Shown piece by piece: positions 574-16,536 of a stretch of 35,970 nucleotides of DNA. The DNA is from Candidatus Gastranaerophilales bacterium (GTDB taxonomy: Bacteria; Cyanobacteriota; Vampirovibrionia; Gastranaerophilales; Gastranaerophilaceae): the NCBI GenBank assembly GCA_944322875.1, contig CALUQI010000009.1:1-35970 (forward strand), read 5' to 3'. The notes beneath the pieces are model-generated. The model was not told the DNA's origin and did no database searches. It saw nothing but the letters and a program-made list of their open reading frames with translations. Positions within the stretch are counted from its first letter, which is position 1, and each line of letters starts with the position of its first letter. A program made the translations under genes and the position numbers.

Positions 574-3500
574 ATGCGGATAAGCGAAATGAGAAATTTA
601 TATATATCAGATGTGTCAGAAACTTCTGATGATAATTATCAAGAGCGCTTGGATAGTATCGTTCGTTCGCTTAGAGAAAGATATCCGGACACCAATGTTT
701 TTACTGATGAAATTTTACAAAACATGGCTGTTTCAATTATAAGAAGAAATCAAGCTATACATTATGAATATGATTTATACGCTTCTTCTTTATTAGAACA
801 TAATCCTGAACTTGCAGAATGGGTTAAATTTACGTATGAAGAAATTTTACAGATGGAATCAACAGGAGTTTTGATTCCTGAAGAAGTACTTGCTTGGGCA
901 CATGCTATGCAAGATTCTGACACAAGCACTTATGTTGTAAATGATGATTCTTTAGTTGATGAAGAATCTGACAGTGTTACCGAAAACTCAAACCAATCCG
1001 AATTTGCCGAAATGCAAAAAAAAGCGTTGACTTTGAGTAATAAATCCGAATCTACTGAATTACAAATAAATCAAACATTTGAAGAATTTGAAGAAATTGC
1101 AAAACGTGCTGAACAAATAAAAAATGAACAGGAAACTTCAAAAAAAGATTCACTTGAAAAAATTGAAGATTTAACAAAAGAATGGGATGAAATTTCACAA
1201 AAAGTTAAAAGAGGAGACAAACTTACTGACGCGGAACAAGCAAGATACAAAGAGCTAGCCTCAATGTTGAATGGCAAAGACGGCGAGCTAATGACAGAAT
1301 TGCAGGCTTCTTTTGATGATTTGGAAAATTTAATAATATCAATGGACGGCTTAAGTGATGATATAAAATCAAGTGTTGAACTGGGTAATCAGACAGTTGA
1401 TATTGCAAAACAGCTTTCAGGTTATGAGGCAGGATATCAGCCAGAAACTGTAACTTCATCTTCAATTCCGGATGTAACAACTGGAGATATAAGAAATATT
1501 TTGGCAGGAGCTGAAGGGCAAAGTATTGCCGAAGATGCTTTGGATAATGGAAATAGTTTGATTGAATTTTCCGGTTATCTCAATGATCAATTAATGATGA
1601 ATCAATACGCATCTTTGTATGATTTTGCAAAGACTTTCACACAAACATCTTCTGAAACCATAAATAATACAAAAGAAGTTTTGGGCGATGATTTCAACAA
1701 AACTACTGAAGAATTAAACGAACAAATTGATGCCTTACCTGATATGACGAATGCTGAGAAAGATGAAGCTTCACTTAATGATATGGGTATCGGGTTATTA
1801 GGTCAAACTCTATATTTTGCAACAAAGAGTATTATGGAAACATCTAATTCAAGTGAAGCTATGTTTATGCTTTCTAATATTCAAATGTTGGCAAAAAGAG
1901 AACAAAAAAATAGCCAATTAATGACAGATACGATTGTTAATCAAATGACTTCAAAATCAGAAGAAGCCGATAGTCTGACAGAAAAGAAAGAAAGAGCAGA
2001 AGAAAATAATGAGGTAATGGAACAAAAAATAGATGATATTTCAAATCCAACCAGTGAAGAAGAGGCAAAAGAACTTGAACAAATTTACAATGAAAGTGAA
2101 GCAAATCCCGAAGAAGAATTTACGGAAGAAGATGAACGTAATCTTAATAATTTAAATGATGAGTTAAAAGAATCAGGTGATTTAGGACAACAAAAATTAT
2201 CACAATCTTATGCTACTATTTCCGGTTTAAGGGATAATATAACTGAGAATGACCTCAGTGGTAATAATGCTATTGAATATGGTGAAATGTCGATTCAGAA
2301 GAGTGAGTATTTATCCAAAACATTATTACTATACGGTCCTTTATTCTTTTTCGCTTATTCTGTGTCAATATTGGGTTATGTCGCCGGACTTGTTGCTCAG
2401 GAAACAGGTGAAGAAAACAATGAAATTTTTGATACTACGTCATCAAATTTGGACATTAGTGAGGCGTCAATAGTACAAAATCAATTATCTATAGAAAATG
2501 TGACTAATGTTTCAGCAATCGGTAATACTTCAACAGGCATGGAAACAACTTCTGAAAATGCAGATGAAACTACAAATACTGATGATACAGAAACTGGTAC
2601 AGATGAGACAAACGAAGAAACATCTGCAATTAACGTAAACGAGTCCGATGTAGTTGTTTCAGGTAATTTCCGTTCAATGAATGCAGGTGAAGTAGTATTA
2701 CCAAGTAATAATTCAGAAACCTCAAATGAGGTAGGAATTGAGACAGGTGCTGCTGCTAATGTCTCAAATGCAGGACAAAACAGTAATTCAAATTCATCCG
2801 GTGCAGCATCAGATAATAGCGTTAACGAGGATATGTCTGCCGACCAAGCAGCTTCTGAAGGTGATTTGCAGCAGGAAAATGCAAAAGATAGTCAGTCACA
2901 AGTTAATGATGCTATAAAAGATGCGGATTCGGCTCAAAAGGAATCTCAAGGTGTTAAAAAAGATAGTGAAAAAACAGAAGCTGAACTTGCAAGAGAAATG
3001 AAAAATATTGAGAACAATAATGAAAAAGATACAGAAAATATCGAAAAAACAGCAAATGATTCAAAAGATGCACAAGAAGAACAAATTCAACTTGCAGAAG
3101 AATTTGAAGCCTTAGATGCCGAAAATCAATCAATTATTGCTTCTCAGAGTCAGAATAATAATTCTCCCGTACAAAATAATAATTTCAATGGAGGTGGTTT
3201 ATTAGCACCTCTTACATCAGGACAATCTAATGCAGGTAATATGGAAATACAGCAAGCAACATTGGTTTCTAATAATGCAAGAATTCAGACAATTGCATCA
3301 AGATTTCAAGTTTTAACTGCCAGGATTATGAAAAATAGATTACAGATAACAAAGACGATTGGTACTATAAATCAAAGAACTAATAAGTTTGAAAAGCTTG
3401 CTAAACAGAAATTAAAAATACAACAAACTTTGCAGAAAAAAGAGGCAGAGAAACAAAAACAAATTCAGGTGGCCAGTTCTGTAATAGATATTTGTAGTAG

Positions 3501-5373
3501 TGTTTTTTCGATTGTGACTGCGGTTGGCACAATAATTGGTGTTGTAGGAAAAACGCTTATATCAACAGGTTCAGCAATGGTAATTGCCGGTGGGGTTTCA
3601 ATTGCAGCTGGAACTGTAATGTGTAGTAACCCATTTACATTTATCCCAGGGGTAGCACTTATAGCAGCAGGTACTGCTCTTAAAGTTTCGGGTGGAATAA
3701 TGACCGCTACGGGTGGAGTTTTAGAAGGGGTTGGTGAAGCTCTAACTATAGCAGGTGTTTCAGGTATTGGTGCTTGTGGTGTTGCTAAGGGTTCAATTTT
3801 AGCAGCAACGGGAGACATCCAAGGAGCACTTACAACCTTATTGTCAACAATTGCATCTATTGCAATGTCGTTTATTCCAGGTGCTGGTGCTGCTGCATCA
3901 ACTGCAACATCTGTGGCTCAAACTGCTTTACAAATCACATCTTCAGCTTTAAATATTGCAAGCTCAAGCGCAAATATAGCATCTTCTGCGTTGACCTTAC
4001 AAGGAAAAGATAACACTGATGCAAATATGGTAAGTTCAATTTTCGGTGCCGCTTCTGCACTTGTAGGGGTTGGCAGTGGATTTGCTGGCTCCGGCGCAAA
4101 TAGCGGTTTTAGCAGCGGCGCTTCTGCTGCTCAAAAAGCTGGTGCTGCTTTCCAAGTTATTAGTGCCGTAGGATCTACTGCTTCAACTACTGCTCAGATT
4201 AGTACAATTATAAAACAGGCTAATGGCGAAAATCCGGGTGAATTGGAAAATATCTTGAATATTATTGGCTTTTCACTTTCAACAGCAGCTGCATTGGGAC
4301 AAATGGGTATACAAATTTCTGATACGGTCCAAAAAAATAAAGATAATACCGAAAATGTTTCTGTTGACTCTGATGCTGAAAGTGCTAATTCTGATAAATC
4401 CGCAAAAAACATTAAAGCGTCTGATAAAAAAGTAAATAATATGAGTCCTCAAGAGAAAGCATCTATGGCATTTAACATAATTAATGGTGTAGGTCAAACT
4501 GTTACATCAATTGCTCAGATTAGTGCTCAAATTAAACAAATGCAAGGTAAAGAAACCGGTAAATTTGAAAACATTATGGGTATTATTGGCGGTTCTCTTT
4601 CAGGTGTTGCATCTGTTGGAATGCTGGGTACACAAATTGCTCAAGTGTCCGAAGCAAATAAAATTGAAAAAGCTGCTAAGACAGACAATTCATCTGATGA
4701 ACAAAATAAAGATGATAAAAATAAAAAAGAATCTGATCTCGCTGATGTTGAACAAAATAAAGAAACACAAGACGAATCAACTAAAAAGAAGATTGATAGT
4801 GATATTCCTGTGGAAAATATTGTAAATATGAATGCTGATAATACATTGGGAATTTCATCTGACGTAGCTGAAATCTCTGATACCTTAGAAGATATTGGCG
4901 ATTTAGAGCTTCCGGAAATTGAACTGCCAAGTTTATCGGTTAATATTTCTGATACTGGTGAAGATATTGTTGGTTCAATTGACGATATCAGGTTAAATAG
5001 TGCCAAAAAAGTTGCATCAGAGGTTGATGTTAACGTGGGTGTCCCTAAAAAGGTTGCAGGCAAAACTTTTGAAATTACTGAAGACGGTTATTATATGGTT
5101 GATAATAAAAAAGTTACACCTGGAGAATTTAAAGATACTTTTGATGAAGCTAAAAAAACCAGAACAGGTCAAATCCTACAGACTATAGCTGATTCCGCTA
5201 ATATGACAAAGCAGGTTTATGAACAAACTCAAAATTTGGAAGAAACCGATACAGAGTTATCTGCTTCGGAAACGAGAGAAATTGACATTGCAACCCTGAG
5301 AAGAGGCAGAGATTTAATAAATAAAATTGAAAAACGTAAAAAAGCGTTATTGAAATATGCAAGATATGCTTAA
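574..5373 (+). CDS. Giant multi-domain protein of unknown function (coiled coil, hydrophobic block, repeats)
   Basis: I do not recognise this 1599-residue protein. Visible parts in order: a globular start (about 1-115); acidic heptad-like coiled-coil stretches (about 140-250 and 480-540); one isolated hydrophobic segment at about 584-609; a Ser/Asn/Thr/Glu/Gln-rich linker (about 610-890); a basic coiled coil (about 906-966); a long Gly/Ala/Ile/Val-rich hydrophobic block (about 967-1110) with several possible membrane helices; three degenerate repeats (about 1114-1172, 1185-1249, 1292-1357); a charged linker; and a basic end finishing in KRKKALLKYARYA. There is no signal peptide and Cys is scarce. 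A coiled coil followed by a hydrophobic block resembles the layout of pore-forming translocator proteins of secretion systems (IpaB/SipB-like), but I see no sequence match, so this is only an analogy. It has its own promoter and is monocistronic. The reading frame is intact over 4.8 kb, so it is under selection. Confidence 0.93.
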   Translation: MRISEMRNLYISDVSETSDDNYQERLDSIVRSLRERYPDTNVFTDEILQNMAVSIIRRNQAIHYEYDLYASSLLEHNPELAEWVKFTYEEILQMESTGVLIPEEVLAWAHAMQDSDTSTYVVNDDSLVDEESDSVTENSNQSEFAEMQKKALTLSNKSESTELQINQTFEEFEEIAKRAEQIKNEQETSKKDSLEKIEDLTKEWDEISQKVKRGDKLTDAEQARYKELASMLNGKDGELMTELQASFDDLENLIISMDGLSDDIKSSVELGNQTVDIAKQLSGYEAGYQPETVTSSSIPDVTTGDIRNILAGAEGQSIAEDALDNGNSLIEFSGYLNDQLMMNQYASLYDFAKTFTQTSSETINNTKEVLGDDFNKTTEELNEQIDALPDMTNAEKDEASLNDMGIGLLGQTLYFATKSIMETSNSSEAMFMLSNIQMLAKREQKNSQLMTDTIVNQMTSKSEEADSLTEKKERAEENNEVMEQKIDDISNPTSEEEAKELEQIYNESEANPEEEFTEEDERNLNNLNDELKESGDLGQQKLSQSYATISGLRDNITENDLSGNNAIEYGEMSIQKSEYLSKTLLLYGPLFFFAYSVSILGYVAGLVAQETGEENNEIFDTTSSNLDISEASIVQNQLSIENVTNVSAIGNTSTGMETTSENADETTNTDDTETGTDETNEETSAINVNESDVVVSGNFRSMNAGEVVLPSNNSETSNEVGIETGAAANVSNAGQNSNSNSSGAASDNSVNEDMSADQAASEGDLQQENAKDSQSQVNDAIKDADSAQKESQGVKKDSEKTEAELAREMKNIENNNEKDTENIEKTANDSKDAQEEQIQLAEEFEALDAENQSIIASQSQNNNSPVQNNNFNGGGLLAPLTSGQSNAGNMEIQQATLVSNNARIQTIASRFQVLTARIMKNRLQITKTIGTINQRTNKFEKLAKQKLKIQQTLQKKEAEKQKQIQVASSVIDICSSVFSIVTAVGTIIGVVGKTLISTGSAMVIAGGVSIAAGTVMCSNPFTFIPGVALIAAGTALKVSGGIMTATGGVLEGVGEALTIAGVSGIGACGVAKGSILAATGDIQGALTTLLSTIASIAMSFIPGAGAAASTATSVAQTALQITSSALNIASSSANIASSALTLQGKDNTDANMVSSIFGAASALVGVGSGFAGSGANSGFSSGASAAQKAGAAFQVISAVGSTASTTAQISTIIKQANGENPGELENILNIIGFSLSTAAALGQMGIQISDTVQKNKDNTENVSVDSDAESANSDKSAKNIKASDKKVNNMSPQEKASMAFNIINGVGQTVTSIAQISAQIKQMQGKETGKFENIMGIIGGSLSGVASVGMLGTQIAQVSEANKIEKAAKTDNSSDEQNKDDKNKKESDLADVEQNKETQDESTKKKIDSDIPVENIVNMNADNTLGISSDVAEISDTLEDIGDLELPEIELPSLSVNISDTGEDIVGSIDDIRLNSAKKVASEVDVNVGVPKKVAGKTFEITEDGYYMVDNKKVTPGEFKDTFDEAKKTRTGQILQTIADSANMTKQVYEQTQNLEETDTELSASETREIDIATLRRGRDLINKIEKRKKALLKYARYA

Positions 5374-10832: not shown

Positions 10833-12199
10833 ATTGATTTTTTCAAGATTTCAATTTTTTCAGGACTGTCACTTTCAAAATATATTCTTAAAAGTGGTTC
10901 AGTGCCGCTGGGACGTATAAGAATCCAGCTGTTATTGTCTTCAAGGTAGAGCTTAACACCATCTTTAAAGTCCTTTTTAATAACTTTCATAGATGCAAAT
11001 TTGTCGGCAGTTTTAAATTTGTTAGTAATTTTTTCTATATCTTCTATTCTATCAAGTTTCATATCAATTCTATCATTGTAAAATTTGCAGCCGACTATAT
11101 TGTTTAATTCTTCTTGTAATTGAATCAATGACTTATTTTCACAAGCCATCATTTCTAAAATAAGCAGATTTGCTAAGATTCCATCTTTTTCAGGGATATG
11201 TCCGCGAATACTTAATCCGCCGGATTCTTCTCCGGCAATAATGGGGTTAAATTTTCTCATTGCTTCGCCTACATGTTTAAAGCCGACAGCAGTTTCGATT
11301 ACTTCAATTCCATATTTTTCAGCTATCTTATCAAGTAATAAACTTGCTCCTACTGTTTTAACAATACATCCGTCCATATTCTTATGTTTTTTAAGATGTA
11401 TCATCAGCATAGCAATGATTTCATTTGGTGTTACATAGTTTCCCTGCTCATTTATTACGCCAAATCTGTCTCCGTCACCATCATTTGCAAAACCAACTGA
11501 ATTGGGAGTTTTCTTTATATATTCCATTAAATCTTTCAAAAACTGAGGTTTAGGTTCGGGCATGCCGCCACCAAAATTTGGGTCGTGAATCATATGTATA
11601 CAGTTTAATTTTACGTCTTCTTCACACAGTAACTTGTCGAAATAGCCGATAGTTGCAGAATATAAACCGTCAAAAATAATGTTCTTATTTAAATGTCTTA
11701 TTACCTTAAAATCTATTAAAGACCTCAGATGAGCAAAATAGGCTTCAGAAAAATCGACCTTTTCTATAGAACCTATAACCCCGGTTTTGATTTCATATCC
11801 GAGGTTTGACATTATTTCATCGGTAATGTCGCTTGTTGCAGGCCCTGCATAATCCGGAATAAACTTTATTCCAAGATATTCAGGTGGATTATGTGATGCC
11901 GTAAACATAATGGCACAGGCATCTTTTATTTTTGCATTATAGGCAAGTATCGGTGTTGGAACCACTTTTTGACTGTATAAAACGTTAAATCCCAAGTTCG
12001 ATAAGATTTCTGCACATTGCCATGAAAATTCAGTTGCCATATTCCTTGGATCATAGCCAACCAGGATTTTTTTGTATATCCCAAAATTGTCAAAAACATA
12101 TTTTGCAATAGCTTTAGTTACTTTTTCAACATTTTCACAGTTGAAATCCTTTCCAACTATTGCTCGCCAACCATCTGTTCCAAACTTTATTATTGTCAT
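10829..12199 (-). CDS. Phosphoglucomutase/phosphomannomutase family protein
   Basis: 456 residues, the usual length of the alpha-D-phosphohexomutase family, which moves phosphate between C6 and C1 of a hexose. All four family loops are visible: phosphoserine loop FTASHNPPEYLG with S102, metal loop NDGDGDRFG, sugar-binding loop GEESGG, and phosphate-binding loop RPSGTEPLLRIY near the end. The substrate (glucose, mannose or glucosamine phosphate) cannot be read safely. The start region FGTDGWRAIVGKDF is typical of cyanobacterial-like members. An AAAGGG element precedes the ATG. It diverges from pheA with 60 bases between starts. Given the GH57 glycosidase in this window, a role in glycogen or sugar-nucleotide supply is plausible. 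Confidence 0.95.
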   Translation of the reverse strand: MTIIKFGTDGWRAIVGKDFNCENVEKVTKAIAKYVFDNFGIYKKILVGYDPRNMATEFSWQCAEILSNLGFNVLYSQKVVPTPILAYNAKIKDACAIMFTASHNPPEYLGIKFIPDYAGPATSDITDEIMSNLGYEIKTGVIGSIEKVDFSEAYFAHLRSLIDFKVIRHLNKNIIFDGLYSATIGYFDKLLCEEDVKLNCIHMIHDPNFGGGMPEPKPQFLKDLMEYIKKTPNSVGFANDGDGDRFGVINEQGNYVTPNEIIAMLMIHLKKHKNMDGCIVKTVGASLLLDKIAEKYGIEVIETAVGFKHVGEAMRKFNPIIAGEESGGLSIRGHIPEKDGILANLLILEMMACENKSLIQLQEELNNIVGCKFYNDRIDMKLDRIEDIEKITNKFKTADKFASMKVIKKDFKDGVKLYLEDNNSWILIRPSGTEPLLRIYFESDSPEKIEILKKSI

Positions 12200-12222
12200 T
12201 ATATTGCCCTTTTCGTTATTTC

Positions 12223-12231
12223 TGCTATAAT
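12223..12231 (+). promoter_or_regulatory. pheA extended -10 promoter
   Basis: TGC-TATAAT, a perfect -10 with TGN extension. Predicted +1 near 12238, then CGGAG (12245-12249) as ribosome binding site before ATG 12260. Confidence 0.7.
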
Positions 12232-12259
12232 TTTAACTGAAATACGGAGTTTAGTAAAT

Positions 12260-13114
12260 ATGGAATTCAAAAATGTTTTAAATATTGCATATCTTGGTCC
12301 GGAAGCATCGTTTTCAGAAATGGCGCGGGATGCTTTTTGCCGTAAATACAATATTAATGCATTTTCAACTCCATTAAAAACTATTCCTGAGGTAATTGAA
12401 TTTGTTGATAAAAATCCATTTACTCTTGGAGTAGTACCTGTGGAAAATTCAATTGATGGAACATTAAGAGCTGCATTTGATAACCTTATGTCATCTCAAA
12501 ATCCCAATATTCGTATTTTATCGGAAATTGTACTTCCGATTGAATATTGTCTTCTGTCGAGAACTACTGAATTTTACAGTATAACAGGCATCATAGGAAC
12601 GCCGTACCTTTTAGGTAAATGTCAAGAATTTATCAAAAATGAGATGCCTTTACATCTAAACATAGTAGAAAATACAAATATGGCTGAATGTGCCAGAAAT
12701 CTTTCTAATTACAATCTTACATATGGTTCTATCGGTAACAGAAAAACGGCAGAAACTTATCATCTAAATATATTGAAGGAAAATATAAATGATGATAAAA
12801 CAAATCGGACAAGGTATATTTTATTTGGGAATTATGAAACTCCGATAACTGGAAACGATAAGACATCAATCGCTTTTGCAGTTAATGACAGCCCCGGAAG
12901 TTTATTGGAAATCCTGCAAATATTTTTAGAAAATAATATAAATTTGACGTATATATCTTCACAGCCATCAAAAGACGATTTGGAAGAATATATATTTACA
13001 GTAAACTTTAATGGACATATACGAGAGCCAAGAATATCAAATGTTTTGAATATTATAAAAACAAAAACAGTATTTTACAGATTTTTGGGCTCATACGAAA
13101 AAAATCATATATAG
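12260..13114 (+). CDS. pheA: Prephenate dehydratase
   Basis: 284 residues, a monofunctional enzyme that turns prephenate into phenylpyruvate in phenylalanine synthesis. The catalytic domain (about 8-190) opens with AYLGPEASFSEMA, has VPVENSIDG at 59-66 and the catalytic TR(F) motif as T184-R185-Y186. An ACT regulatory domain follows (about 202-280). The two phenylalanine-binding motifs are changed: GALV reads GSLL (213-216) and ESRP reads SSQP (233-236). Feedback inhibition may therefore be weaker or different; this is inference. Transcribed alone from its own promoter. The next promoter begins one base after its stop codon. Confidence 0.95.
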   Translation: MEFKNVLNIAYLGPEASFSEMARDAFCRKYNINAFSTPLKTIPEVIEFVDKNPFTLGVVPVENSIDGTLRAAFDNLMSSQNPNIRILSEIVLPIEYCLLSRTTEFYSITGIIGTPYLLGKCQEFIKNEMPLHLNIVENTNMAECARNLSNYNLTYGSIGNRKTAETYHLNILKENINDDKTNRTRYILFGNYETPITGNDKTSIAFAVNDSPGSLLEILQIFLENNINLTYISSQPSKDDLEEYIFTVNFNGHIREPRISNVLNIIKTKTVFYRFLGSYEKNHI

Positions 13115-13144
13115 TTGACGGAAACTTAAGTTATATGTTATAAT
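13115..13144 (+). promoter_or_regulatory. Strong promoter of the tail-fibre-like cassette
   Basis: TTGACG (13115-13120), 18-base spacer ending in TGT, TATAAT (13139-13144). It is the closest match to the sigma-70 consensus among the promoters seen here. Just downstream is a small inverted repeat ATTGG/CCAAT (13143-13147 with 13154-13158). Confidence 0.75.
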
Positions 13145-13191
13145 TGGATATTGCCAATTGCTCATGTAATTTGCCGGAAAGGTAAAATTAT

Positions 13192-14208
13192 ATGACAGAA
13201 CCATTAATACCCTACACATTTGTTCCGGGAACAAAAGCAAAAGCTCAGGAGGTTAATGCCAATTTTTTGTCATTAGCCGAGCAAATTCAAGATGTTCAGT
13301 CTTCTGCTACATCTCAGGTAAGTGATTTACAAACCGTTTTAGAAGGTCAGATAGAAGAAGTTGAAGAAAACATTGCTAATAATTATTCTTCTAAAGATTT
13401 ATCAAATAGCGGGATGATTACTAACACAATACTCGAGGCTCCAAACGGGGTAGTATCTTATGAAGGTAATATTATAACGGTTGCATCAGGTCTGAAAGTT
13501 CTTATGCCAAATGGACGAACTGATGATGATAGGTTGCAAAATATTGAGTATATTACAGAATCAGCAATCGAAAAAACATTTACCAATTTATCAAATGCAG
13601 CGACAACATTATTTCTTAACAATGATGGAACTGTAGAAGCAGTATACAGGAATTATATTTATTTTAAAAGTTCAACACCTACAACTCTTAGTGAGAATGT
13701 TCGTTGGTACAATACAACAGAAAACAAGTGGTATAAATACAATGTGACAGAATCTTCATGGCAAACAATAGTAACTACACCAATAGCTACAGTTGATTGG
13801 GATGCAAGTAGTTATGTATCTTCTCTTGTGGCGAGTCAGCCATTAAATTTGGTAAAATTGACCGATTTAAACGATTTTTATACAATACGTGGTATTTTAC
13901 CGAGGAATTTAGATTATGTAATAGAACGATATCAAAACAGTTGGAGTTTTTATACTTTATACAAGTCGGGCTGGGTAAAGCAGGGCGGCTGTATAGAAGG
14001 TTCAGGAGGGGCTATAGCAAACTTTTATTTTGCTATAAATCCGGGTTATCATATATCCATAGCAAGAACATCAGGTGCTGGAACAACATCAGATATTGGT
14101 GTTTGGGTTCGTGAAGTACAGCCGAGTTATATACATGTGTATTCACCAAGTAATACAGGTAAGGTTTGGTGTACTGAAGGTTTTAGAACAAGTATAGAGG
14201 AGTATTAA
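13192..14208 (+). CDS. Phage tail-fibre-like protein
   Basis: 338 residues, not identified to a named family but with phage tail-protein hallmarks. The start FVPGTKAKAQEVNANFLSL (about 10-28) has the (A)xxVNxNF motif common at the front of tail or fibre proteins. A helical stretch follows (about 28-65). The middle (about 145-185) holds YIYFKSSTPTTLS and a WYNTTENKWYKYN unit, as in fibre spacers. The end (about 240-338) looks like a beta-rich tip, with SGWVKQGGCIEGSGGAIANFYFAINPGY cut here to its key residues W, QGG and Y/F, and a final WCTEGF. There is no signal peptide. GGAAAGG precedes the ATG. It is read from a strong promoter with one small gene behind it. Adhesin-like or receptor-binding function is inferred; no other phage gene is nearby. 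Confidence 0.8.
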   Translation: MTEPLIPYTFVPGTKAKAQEVNANFLSLAEQIQDVQSSATSQVSDLQTVLEGQIEEVEENIANNYSSKDLSNSGMITNTILEAPNGVVSYEGNIITVASGLKVLMPNGRTDDDRLQNIEYITESAIEKTFTNLSNAATTLFLNNDGTVEAVYRNYIYFKSSTPTTLSENVRWYNTTENKWYKYNVTESSWQTIVTTPIATVDWDASSYVSSLVASQPLNLVKLTDLNDFYTIRGILPRNLDYVIERYQNSWSFYTLYKSGWVKQGGCIEGSGGAIANFYFAINPGYHISIARTSGAGTTSDIGVWVREVQPSYIHVYSPSNTGKVWCTEGFRTSIEEY

Positions 14209-14210
14209 AA

Positions 14211-14576
14211 ATGAAATTATTATCAAAACCATATACACAGATGCAATATAATGCTTTTGTTGACGAGTGTAACAGTGACGGTAAATTAAGAATTGAAAGG
14301 CATAATGGTAATGCTTATGCAATGTATGATTATGAAGTTTATCAAGATGGTGAAGTTATAGATTTACGTAACACCCCAGAATATCAAGCATTGCAAGAAG
14401 AAACGGCAAGACAAGAAAGGATAGAAGAAATACAAGCAGAACTAACCGAATTAGATCAAAAACGTATTCGTGCGATATGTGAACCTGAAGGAGTTCGTGA
14501 AGATGGTACAACTTGGTTAGAATATTACAACGAACAAGTTGCTGCTCTCAGAACAGAATTAAATAGTATTCAATAA
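14211..14576 (+). CDS. Small tail-fibre-associated protein (possible assembly chaperone)
   Basis: 121 residues. It starts with a compact domain (about 1-60, YTQMQYNAFVDECNSDGKL, then DYEVYQDGEVIDLRN), then a charged helix (about 62-85) and an end reading LTELDQKRIRAICEPEG, then TTWLEYYNEQVAALRTEL. Similar 'LDxKxIRAxxEP...WLEYYNEQ' endings are known to me from small genes that follow tail-fibre genes in gut phages, so a fibre assembly or capping role is inferred, not shown. It lies two bases after the fibre gene with GAGGAG (14197-14202) inside that gene's end, so the two are surely co-translated partners. A strong terminator follows 14 bases after the stop. Confidence 0.78.
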   Translation: MKLLSKPYTQMQYNAFVDECNSDGKLRIERHNGNAYAMYDYEVYQDGEVIDLRNTPEYQALQEETARQERIEEIQAELTELDQKRIRAICEPEGVREDGTTWLEYYNEQVAALRTELNSIQ

Positions 14577-14590
14577 ATAACTATTTTAAT

Positions 14591-14627
14591 GTGAGCCGGT
14601 TTAAGCCGGCTCACAATTTTTATTTTT
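14591..14627 (+). terminator. Intrinsic terminator of the tail-fibre cassette
   Basis: Nine-base GC-rich stem GTGAGCCGG/CCGGCTCAC (14591-14599 with 14606-14614), six-base loop, then a T-rich tract to 14627. It ends two bases before the tyrS extended -10. Confidence 0.93.
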
Positions 14628-14628
14628 C

Positions 14629-14637
14629 TGTTATAAT
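14629..14637 (+). promoter_or_regulatory. tyrS extended -10 promoter
   Basis: TGT-TATAAT, predicted +1 near 14644, leader of about 14 bases with GAGGGG (14647-14652) as ribosome binding site. There is no T-box leader, which many Firmicutes tyrS genes have. Confidence 0.7.
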
Positions 14638-14657
14638 TATACCAAAGAGGGGAAATT

Positions 14658-15884
14658 ATGGAAATAAGAGAAGAATTTATAGAACAATCTAAAAGATTGT
14701 CAAGAGGTGCAGAAGTTTTACCCGGCGGTATTGAGGAATTAGCAGTAAAATTGCAACATTCAAAAGATACAAATACTCCATTGAGAGTAAAATTGGGTAT
14801 GGATCCAACAAGACCGGATCTTCATCTTGGTCATACAGTAGTTATGCGGAAATTAAGAGAATTTCAAAAATTAGGTCATAAGGTTGTTCTAATAGTAGGT
14901 GGAGCCACAGCAATGGTCGGTGACCCGTCAGGGAAGTCTGAAACACGCCCGTCGCTTACAAAAGAACAAGTAGAGGAAAATGCTAAATCATATTTTGAAC
15001 AGATGTCTAAAGTTGTTGATGTTCAAAAGGCCGAGGTTGTTAATAATGCAGATTGGCTTCATAAAATGAGTTTTGTTGATCTTTTGAAATTAGCGGCACA
15101 GATGACCGTTGCACAAATGATGACTCGTGATGATTTTTCCAAACGTTATTCTGAGGGGAAACCTATTTCTATTCACGAATTTTTCTATCCGCTTATGCAA
15201 GCATACGATTCTGTGGTTGTGGATGCCGATATTGAGCTTGGCGGCTCAGATCAAAGATTTAATACTCTTTTAGGCAGACAAATTCAGGAGGCTTATGGCA
15301 AAAAATATCCGCAGATGGTGATGCTTTTGCCACTTATAGAAGGTACTGACGGACTTGTTAAAATGTCCAAAACTTATCCTGAACATTGTATTTCTTTAAC
15401 TGACAGTGCTAAAGATATGTTTGGTAAGTTAATGAGTATTCCTGATACTTTGATTTTAAAGTATTACACCCTTTTGACTGATGTTGACGATATTGTCTTA
15501 AAGGAAATTGAGTCAAAACTTATTGACCAAACATCAAATCCCAGAGATTTGAAAATGGAATTGGCACACCTGATAACAGAAGAATACCACGGTAAAGAAG
15601 ATGCGGATAATGCTCAGAAAGAGTTTATCAATGTAGTGTCAAACAAAGGTATCCCCGAAGATATTCAAGAAGTTAAGATAGAAGCAGGAAAATTACTTTT
15701 AGATTTACTTATGGAATTAAATTTTGTTTCTTCCAAAAGTGAAGGTAAACGGCTTATCTTAGGTGGCGGGGTAAAGGTTAATGGCGAAAAAATTACCGAT
15801 ATTACTTATATCTTAGAATTTGAAGATAGTGTAATATTGCAAGCAGGGAAAAGAAAATACGCAAAATTGGTAAAAAATGTTTAA
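14658..15884 (+). CDS. tyrS: Tyrosyl-tRNA synthetase
   Basis: 408 residues, class I aminoacyl-tRNA synthetase that charges tRNA-Tyr. The ATP-binding HIGH motif is HLGH at 56-59 and the second signature is KMSKT at 235-239, which places it in the KMSKS-type (TyrZ-like) group and not the KFGKT group of E. coli TyrS. An S4-like RNA-binding domain ends the protein (about 340-405, with NFVSSKSEGKRLILGGGVKVNG). The length is normal. cysE starts eight bases before its stop codon, so the two form an operon. Confidence 0.97.
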   Translation: MEIREEFIEQSKRLSRGAEVLPGGIEELAVKLQHSKDTNTPLRVKLGMDPTRPDLHLGHTVVMRKLREFQKLGHKVVLIVGGATAMVGDPSGKSETRPSLTKEQVEENAKSYFEQMSKVVDVQKAEVVNNADWLHKMSFVDLLKLAAQMTVAQMMTRDDFSKRYSEGKPISIHEFFYPLMQAYDSVVVDADIELGGSDQRFNTLLGRQIQEAYGKKYPQMVMLLPLIEGTDGLVKMSKTYPEHCISLTDSAKDMFGKLMSIPDTLILKYYTLLTDVDDIVLKEIESKLIDQTSNPRDLKMELAHLITEEYHGKEDADNAQKEFINVVSNKGIPEDIQEVKIEAGKLLLDLLMELNFVSSKSEGKRLILGGGVKVNGEKITDITYILEFEDSVILQAGKRKYAKLVKNV

Positions 15885-16536
15885 ACTAATAAAAAGAGGG
15901 ATAATAAAAGTAAAAGAAGACATACAGGTTATTTATGATAAAGATCCTGCAGCTACAAATATATTTGAAGTCTTATTGTGTTATCCGGGTTTGCATGCAT
16001 TAATAGCATATCGTTTTGCGCATAGGCTCCATAAATGGCATATTCCCCTTTTGCCCAGAATAATCTCTTATATAACCAGAATAATTACCGGGATAGAAAT
16101 TCATCCCGGAGCCAGAATAGGCCGAAGATTTTTTATTGATCACGGAGAAGGTGTCGTTATAGGAGAGACTACGACGATAGGGAATGATGTATTAATATAT
16201 CAACAAGTAACATTGGGAGGTACCGGTAAAGAACACGGCAAAAGACATCCGACGTTAGGTAATAATGTAATAGTCGGAGCCGGAGCTAAAGTACTTGGTA
16301 ATATTAAGTTAGGAGATTTTGTCAGAGTTGGCGCCGGTTCTGTTGTTGTGGAAGATGTTCCTGAATATTCGACGGTGGTAGGAATTCCTGGGCGAATAGT
16401 ACAACGCAAAGTTCTTGACGAAAACGGTATTTTGATGCATAACAGGATTCCGGATCCGGTTAAATGCGAAATCAACCGCCTAAAATATGAAATAAAAGAG
16501 TTAAAAGAAAAAATAAAAGATATATTACAAATGTAA
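15877..16536 (+). CDS. cysE: Serine O-acetyltransferase
   Basis: 219 residues. It makes O-acetylserine from serine and acetyl-CoA, the first step of cysteine synthesis. The start (KVKEDIQVIYDKDPAATN) is the family's helical domain; a left-handed parallel beta-helix follows from about residue 72 (hexapeptides such as IHPGAR, IGRRFF, VVIGET, VIVGAG). Catalytic D88-H89 lie in FIDHGEGVVIGE, and the second family histidine region GKEHGKRHP is present. The C-terminal charged helix (about 195-219) lacks an obvious Ile-ending cysteine-synthase-binding peptide; it ends in LQM. It overlaps tyrS by eight bases and has no strong ribosome binding site, so coupled translation is likely. O-acetylserine sulfhydrylase (cysK) is not in the window. 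Confidence 0.95.
   Translation: MFKLIKRGIIKVKEDIQVIYDKDPAATNIFEVLLCYPGLHALIAYRFAHRLHKWHIPLLPRIISYITRIITGIEIHPGARIGRRFFIDHGEGVVIGETTTIGNDVLIYQQVTLGGTGKEHGKRHPTLGNNVIVGAGAKVLGNIKLGDFVRVGAGSVVVEDVPEYSTVVGIPGRIVQRKVLDENGILMHNRIPDPVKCEINRLKYEIKELKEKIKDILQM

Follow-up and report, generated by a model that had tools for sequence, protein, structure and literature searches.

A tail-fibre cassette between pheA and tyrS in Gastranaerophilales is probably the outlying fibre module of a domesticated, podovirus-like element that is most likely a gene transfer agent

The window, a stretch of 35,970 nt, comes from a 1.49 Mb assembly of 98 contigs (G000) that belongs to Gastranaerophilales, gut bacteria that are non-photosynthetic relatives of cyanobacteria. 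The interval between its pheA and tyrS genes contains a promoter, the gene FIB, the gene SM, and a terminator, which together form one unit at 13115–14615 (Table 1). The two genes are separated by two bases and both reading frames are intact, which confirms the proposal of an earlier sequence-only reading that a complete promoter, fibre, partner and terminator unit lies between housekeeping genes. That reading also regarded the promoter as the best of the window, and in the stretch that was ranked (11500–16500) it was indeed the best of 29 promoter-like sites, with 11 of 12 positions matched; the mean number of such sites in shuffled sequences was 21.2. The cassette terminator was the strongest of four in the same stretch. 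The motif TTGAC-N17/18-TGNTATAAT was located 5′ of FIB in seven genomes, which were the window's genome and G013, G005, G003, G014, G021, and G022, and a hairpin followed by a T run, spelled differently in each case, was located 3′ of SM in all five carriers of the genus (G000, G013, G005, G003, and G014). The Rfam scan of the cassette region gave no match, and no further phage genes were met within the annotated portions of the window. Elsewhere in the window, a 1599-aa open reading frame at 574–5373 had no significant Pfam or NCBIfam match.

Table 1. Features of the pheA–tyrS interval, in window coordinates
Feature	Position	Strand	Basis or description
pheA (prephenate dehydratase)	12260..13114	+	Pfam PDT 4.5e-38, ACT 5.2e-8; 5′ flank of the fixed locus
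Sigma-70-type promoter	13115..13144	+	TTGACG, 18 nt spacer, TG-extended TATAAT
FIB, tail fibre / receptor-binding protein, 338 aa	13192..14208	+	Single copy, AF2 model, PDB matches, Gp53-like_C in orthologues
N-terminal virion-anchor motif of FIB, about residues 5–25, LIPYTFVPGTKAKAQEVNANF	13204..13266	+	Family-wide conservation
FIB long helix, residues 16–64	13237..13383	+	AF2 secondary structure
FIB central beta domain, residues 79–214	13426..13833	+	AF2, mostly pLDDT above 90
FIB C-terminal head, residues 243–331, presumed receptor-binding tip	13918..14184	+	Prophage-fibre likeness; position of Gp53-like_C in orthologues
SM, small fibre-partner protein, 121 aa, probable tail-fibre assembly factor	14211..14576	+	Gene order, motif, fold match
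Intrinsic terminator ending the cassette	14590..14615	+	11 bp stem, 7 G-C, T-rich tail
tyrS own promoter/leader, TGTTATAAT ... AGAGGGGAAATT	14621..14657	+	Same sequence type at empty sites of relatives
tyrS	14658..15884	+	NCBIfam TIGR00234 (tyrS) 2.1e-108; 3′ flank of the fixed locus

The structure of FIB was modelled with AlphaFold2 (AF2) from a 34-sequence alignment, which gave a mean pLDDT of 75.6 and a protein with a flexible N-terminus, a helix at residues 16–64, and beta-rich domains. The best PDB matches of the model were the lactococcal phage p2 receptor-binding protein (1zru, E 8.5e-4; 2x53) and R2 pyocin fibres (6ct8, 6cl6), with low TM-scores, since only parts of the structures could be aligned, while its matches in the viral structure library BFVD were tail fibres and podoviral proteins. 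Structural similarity to fibres, on which the sequence-only reading had staked its assignment, was therefore found. The FIB and SM proteins of the window themselves had no match above cut-off in Pfam (including PF21882), PHROGs, or NCBIfam, and no match was obtained when the phage collection was searched directly with both proteins or when viral contigs were scanned with FIB alone. Among FIB orthologues, Gp53-like_C (PF21882) scored above the Pfam gathering cut-off in five (L158, L165, L134, L170, and L196), at the equivalent C-terminal position, and PHROG tail-fibre matches were also obtained. Residues 88–225 of FIB are similar to a prophage fibre in G008, and residues 241–280 to a Mu/P2-like prophage fibre in G006, both from the same genus. 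The anchor motif, PYxFxPGTKAKAxEVNANF, is near-invariant across the family and also opens fibres that adjoin virion genes on podovirus-like contigs. With its virion-anchoring N-terminus, helical shaft, and beta-rich tip, FIB is, judging from sequence and model, a phage tail fibre, and the description of the gene as tail-fibre-like is borne out by the fold matches and by the Gp53-like_C and PHROG matches of its orthologues. The helix at residues 16–64 is presumed to form a trimeric coiled-coil shaft, because known fibres are trimeric.

The C-terminus of SM is conserved (DxKRIRA...TWLEYYNxQIxxLRxEL) and its N-terminus is variable. The C-terminal motif is shared with a protein of phage contig L064 (43% identity), the gene of which is located 3′ of a fibre gene. 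The best fold match of the SM model (pLDDT 89.2), at E 0.011, was a tail fiber assembly protein from phage ctwVB15, and another ctwVB15 protein was the third-best viral-library match of FIB. The motif in L064 and the fold match agree with the earlier view of SM as a small assembly-like gene of the fibre-partner type, and these sequence and model data are no more than suggestive of a role as tail-fibre assembly factor. Prophage-like runs with the gene order fibre, SM-like gene, amidase were observed in genera g31, g39, and g54 (L231, L233, and L234); their amidase resembles that of the domesticated cluster described below, and this gene order is perhaps ancestral.

To determine how widely the cassette occurs, an alignment search with the FIB N-terminus was used. 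The anchor-bearing gene was detected in 114 of 288 genomes of the family, representing 24 of 41 genera, with exactly one gene per carrier; the window's genome contains FIB only once. In the genus, FIB-SM occupies the pheA–tyrS slot in the window's genome, G013 (70% identity), G005, G003, and G014, and divergent versions are present in other genera. Among 80 named loci, SM followed FIB in 75, pheA was located upstream in 66 and tyrS downstream in 56, with both flanks present in 47 and at least one of them in 75. The length of FIB ranges from about 203 to 480 aa and is roughly genus-typical. In cassette-free members of the genus the pheA–tyrS gap is clean, about 25–70 bp long, and retains the same kind of tyrS promoter. 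On a host tree built from five genes, carriers are mixed in among the non-carriers and the outgroups have the cassette, which makes loss the simpler reading; at least two losses are needed on the best tree, the deep nodes of which are weakly supported. These sequence comparisons indicate that the cassette is ancestral in the family and was most likely lost in the cassette-free relatives. A recent insertion between pheA and tyrS is ruled out by the fact that the slot is common to many genera, and hence the earlier description of the cassette as inserted has to be replaced by that of an ancestral fixed locus. In several loci tyrS is missing beside the cassette and cysE is still present (G014 at L024, and L129, L166, L167, L197, and L198); G014 had no strong tyrS match anywhere in its 89% complete genome, and it is possible that tyrS was lost or replaced next to the cassette in loci of this type.

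In close pairs of genomes the dN/dS of FIB was 0.1–0.36, and that of SM was also low. The fixed locus, the single copy, and this purifying selection support, at the sequence level, the domestication of the FIB-SM module, which the sequence-only reading had considered. It had also proposed to compare the pheA–tyrS space among relatives for presence, absence, or exchange of alleles. Besides the presence and absence described above, this comparison showed that the dS of FIB was more than twice that of tyrS in 17 of 19 close pairs, of which two were saturated and which are not independent of each other, and in one close pair FIB was nearly identical and tyrS was not. This pattern suggests that cassette alleles were exchanged between relatives; tyrS itself may recombine.

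The window's genome also contains an intact 12 kb podovirus-type cluster on a separate contig (C10, about 15.9–28.0 kb). A terminase search of the carriers led to the cluster in other genera, from which a capsid alignment was then built; the C10 cluster was missed by PF03237 and recovered with the alignments built in this analysis. Its 13 phage-type genes encode a LuxR-type regulator, an amidase, a nozzle-like protein, the capsid, two small proteins, an adaptor, the small terminase subunit (TerS), a further small protein, a GNAT protein, the portal, the large terminase subunit (TerL), and a holin-like protein, and a zinc-ribbon gene is located just upstream (start L224:17962, minus strand). 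Matches in Pfam and PHROGs were obtained for TerL (1.8e-19), SU10_portal (1.1e-20), TerS (4.9e-16), the major head protein (3.6e-54), the nozzle-type protein (1e-23), the amidase (6.6e-16), and GerE (2e-18). No fibre genes were recognised within the C10 cluster, and no integrase, replication, or lysogeny genes were recognised among the open reading frames around the cluster in the stretches from G000, G101, G179, and G103. In genomes of the genus and of g7 the cluster is flanked by FliI-ZIP on one side and the MGLAASQ gene-secA on the other; in g10 its location is different. The site is closed up in most of the non-carriers examined. Another TerL gene of the window's genome (C34:1665-2903, L205) was set aside as a partner, because it is prophage-like, with integrase- and DnaB-like genes nearby. 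Its product is 59% identical to the cluster TerL, and beyond the integrase- and DnaB-like genes there are sugar-metabolism genes.

The distribution of the cluster was compared with that of the cassette. Among 288 genomes, 105 contained both the capsid gene and the FIB anchor, nine FIB only, 23 the capsid gene only, and 151 neither, where these are raw genome counts that ignore kinship and the Fisher p-values likewise carry no phylogenetic correction. In the genus, the capsid gene was present in all five cassette carriers and in none of 11 non-carriers; since the deep branches are weakly supported, the independent co-losses behind this match could number just one or two. Many of the exceptions are softened: the cassette of G280 is at tyrS but has a divergent anchor, a stand-alone cassette, also with a divergent anchor, accompanies the distant capsid gene in genomes of g50, and TerL is present in G080, G239, and G285. 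The remaining exceptions are genus g31, which has capsid genes and an empty tyrS slot, and genomes of g30, g46, g3, and g52, in which stand-alone cassettes are found at other loci and the capsid gene was not detected. The latter genera would be expected if FIB-SM acted alone, whether in adhesion, as a decoy, or by spoiling infecting phages as a dominant-negative fibre, with the co-occurrence reflecting shared ancestry only; the cassette's own promoter and terminator, and the anchor-bearing fibres found in phages of the same hosts, also fit such a role. However, the co-occurrence across the family and the exact match to the cluster in the genus argue against it, as do the fact that the cluster has no fibre of its own, the conservation of the anchor as though it bound a conserved partner, and the start of FIB, which by eye is not signal-peptide-like. 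We consider a role of FIB-SM on its own quite improbable, and the phage-derived adhesin suggested by the sequence-only reading, being free-standing, explains the co-inheritance with the cluster poorly.

Both halves of the element occur in one piece in short-tailed phages from IMG/VR (L064, L091, and L327), the TerL of which is 55–62% and the capsid 32–44% identical to those of the element. Contig L091 has the capsid (32%), adaptor, nozzle, and GNAT genes together with an anchor-bearing fibre, while L064 has a holin-like gene, a fibre, the SM-like gene, and TerL (55%). On L327, from a phage contig of 37.9 kb, TerL (62%), an amidase (62%), a portal, and a capsid (44%) are accompanied by a fibre with a related starting motif, and this contig has many genes beyond those of the element. 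The capsid gene of the cluster type was also found in about 40 IMG/VR contigs, and those examined correspond to the domesticated cluster, not to free phages. Capsid identity is at least 74% in the cluster-type contigs and no higher than 54% in the phages.

All genes of the cluster are intact in G000 and G005, and essentially the whole set is present in 11 genomes. The distances of cluster genes correlated with those of a host gene (Mantel r 0.54–0.79, 9–10 taxa). TerL is 80–95% identical across genera, with intact Walker/ATPase and nuclease-type motifs, and its mean difference was 14%, compared with 23% for the host ZIP protein. The dN/dS values of cluster genes were about 0.05–0.24 where they could be computed; across the cluster genes, SM, and FIB, several dS values were saturated. 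It could be supposed that the two loci are what is left of an old prophage, slowly decaying and without any function today, as the loss in part of the genus and the decayed remnant in the non-carrier G007 (TerS, a small gene, GNAT, portal, TerL, and a holin-like gene) might suggest. The essentially complete clusters in 11 genomes, the low dN/dS of the cluster and of FIB, and the promoter, frames, and terminator retained across relatives make this highly improbable.

The capsid, the portal, and both terminase subunits also rule out a tailocin that consists of a tail only. A contractile injection system or R-type tailocin is disfavoured by the DNA-packaging head genes in the partner cluster and by the absence of Baseplate_J (PF04865), for which the search, suggested earlier for the window's genome, gave no match in G000, G003, G005, or G013. 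The proposal of a dispersed tailocin or contractile injection system hence stands as far as a dispersed particle system is concerned, but the partner is a short-tailed head–tail system that packages DNA. An intact prophage is not indicated, because integrase, replication, and lysogeny genes were not recognised with the virion genes. The sequence-only reading would have yielded to a larger prophage assembled elsewhere; other virion genes are indeed located elsewhere, but in a domesticated cluster at a fixed locus.

These data suggest that FIB-SM probably supplies the fibre of a podovirus-like element that has been domesticated and dispersed, with its head, packaging, and tail genes at a second fixed locus, and that this element is most likely a gene transfer agent (GTA). 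In the sequence, this assignment is carried by the identity of the fibre, the intact partner cluster, the co-inheritance, the fixed loci, the purifying selection, and the lack of recognisable integrase and replication genes. GTAs have been defined by particle proteins derived from caudoviricetes, full endogenization, often at multiple loci, mostly vertical inheritance with host co-diversification, packaging of mostly random host DNA, a head too small for the agent's own genome, and DNA delivery (PMC9662315). The element encodes TerL, TerS, portal, capsid, adaptor, nozzle, endolysin, and fibre proteins of caudoviricete derivation, and occupies two fixed loci with housekeeping flanks in several genera. 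Its inheritance appears mostly vertical from the Mantel correlations and fixed loci, though the fibre cassette shows allele exchange. Packaging of its own genes in one piece is unlikely, because the element is split over two loci.

In the proposed mechanism, the LuxR-regulated cluster would be induced in some cells, and the capsid, portal, TerS/TerL, adaptor, and nozzle would form small short-tailed particles containing host DNA. Trimers of FIB, with SM helping in their folding, would join the tail via the conserved N-terminus, the amidase and the holin-like protein would release the particles, and the variable tip of FIB would determine which cells are bound. We infer the production of particles, the attachment of FIB to the particle of the cluster, the random packaging and the delivery of host DNA, and the role of SM. 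It is awkward for this model that FIB has a strong, constitutive-looking promoter of its own and that no short motif common to the cassette and cluster promoters was found, so that co-regulation of the two loci is unsupported. Just upstream of the zinc-ribbon gene there is an inverted-repeat-like sequence, CCGTAAAATTACG...TACGTA...TACGGAATTGTA, which is conserved in four carriers of the genus and is a possible operator for the cluster.

The main rival to a GTA is a killing particle like PBSX of Bacillus subtilis, built by both loci, which would package host DNA or nothing and use FIB to bind relatives and kill them without delivering genes. The structural genes of such a particle would look identical; the R-pyocin-like fold matches of FIB, the endolysin in the cluster, and the fibre alleles that differ among close relatives, as a weapon of competition would predict, are also consistent with it. 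On the other hand, TerL is among the most conserved genes of the cluster and its ATPase and nuclease motifs are intact, which suggests that packaged DNA matters, and no gene of an immunity type was recognised next to the cassette or the cluster; we regard this rival as rather unlikely. PBSX, which acts as a tailocin and not as a deliverer of DNA (PMC12946183), resembles the proposed particle in being domesticated, phage-derived, and filled with host DNA; compared by description, the element of Gastranaerophilales differs in its podovirus-type genes and in having its fibre gene at another locus.

The closest parallel to a GTA of this kind is FpGTA of Faecalibacterium, the first podovirus-like GTA, reported in 2026, which has a 10.5 kb operon with TerS, TerL, portal, and capsid genes and, 125 kb away, a second operon with tail fibre/receptor-binding protein and lysis genes, and for which particles and packaged DNA were demonstrated (PMC12946183). 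Both have a gut host, a podovirus-like main locus, and fibre genes at a distant second one. FpGTA differs in belonging to another phylum, and in Gastranaerophilales the main cluster includes the endolysin, leaving only the fibre and its partner at the second locus. The likeness is drawn from descriptions, between particles that were shown and particles predicted from genes. RcGTA of Rhodobacter capsulatus (Rhodogtaviriformidae) is also dispersed, over five loci, and mostly vertically inherited, and its tail fibre rcc00171 has domains related to R-pyocin fibres (PMC9662315; PMC10218006), to which FIB also has fold matches. RcGTA is alphaproteobacterial and its function is proven, in contrast to the SU10/podovirus-type cluster of Gastranaerophilales. 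It is also longer-tailed. To our knowledge, few GTAs are known outside Alphaproteobacteria, and no report of a GTA in Melainabacteria, Vampirovibrionia, or Gastranaerophilales was found in the open-licence literature.

We give about an even chance to the broader proposal that the element represents an independent podovirus-derived GTA lineage in about half of the genera of the family, with a separately expressed pheA–tyrS cassette that would be swapped between species by recombination in its flanks, such that the range of recipients shifts and the particle stays constant. If a GTA is indeed encoded, it could provide one way for genes to be exchanged within a little-cultured gut lineage, and it would add another example of phages being domesticated. 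Stand-alone tail-fibre cassettes could then be outlying parts of dispersed particles, and one fibre locus and one fibre-less capsid locus, present or absent together, could serve as a search pattern for other such systems. Stand-alone cassettes of a fibre with the same kind of anchor and a partner were also observed at other housekeeping loci in G046, G081, G062, G071, and G068 (L398-L402), genomes in which a capsid gene of the cluster type was not found. These cassettes may supply fibres to a more distant form of the element; in G071 the cassette is followed by a holin-like gene.
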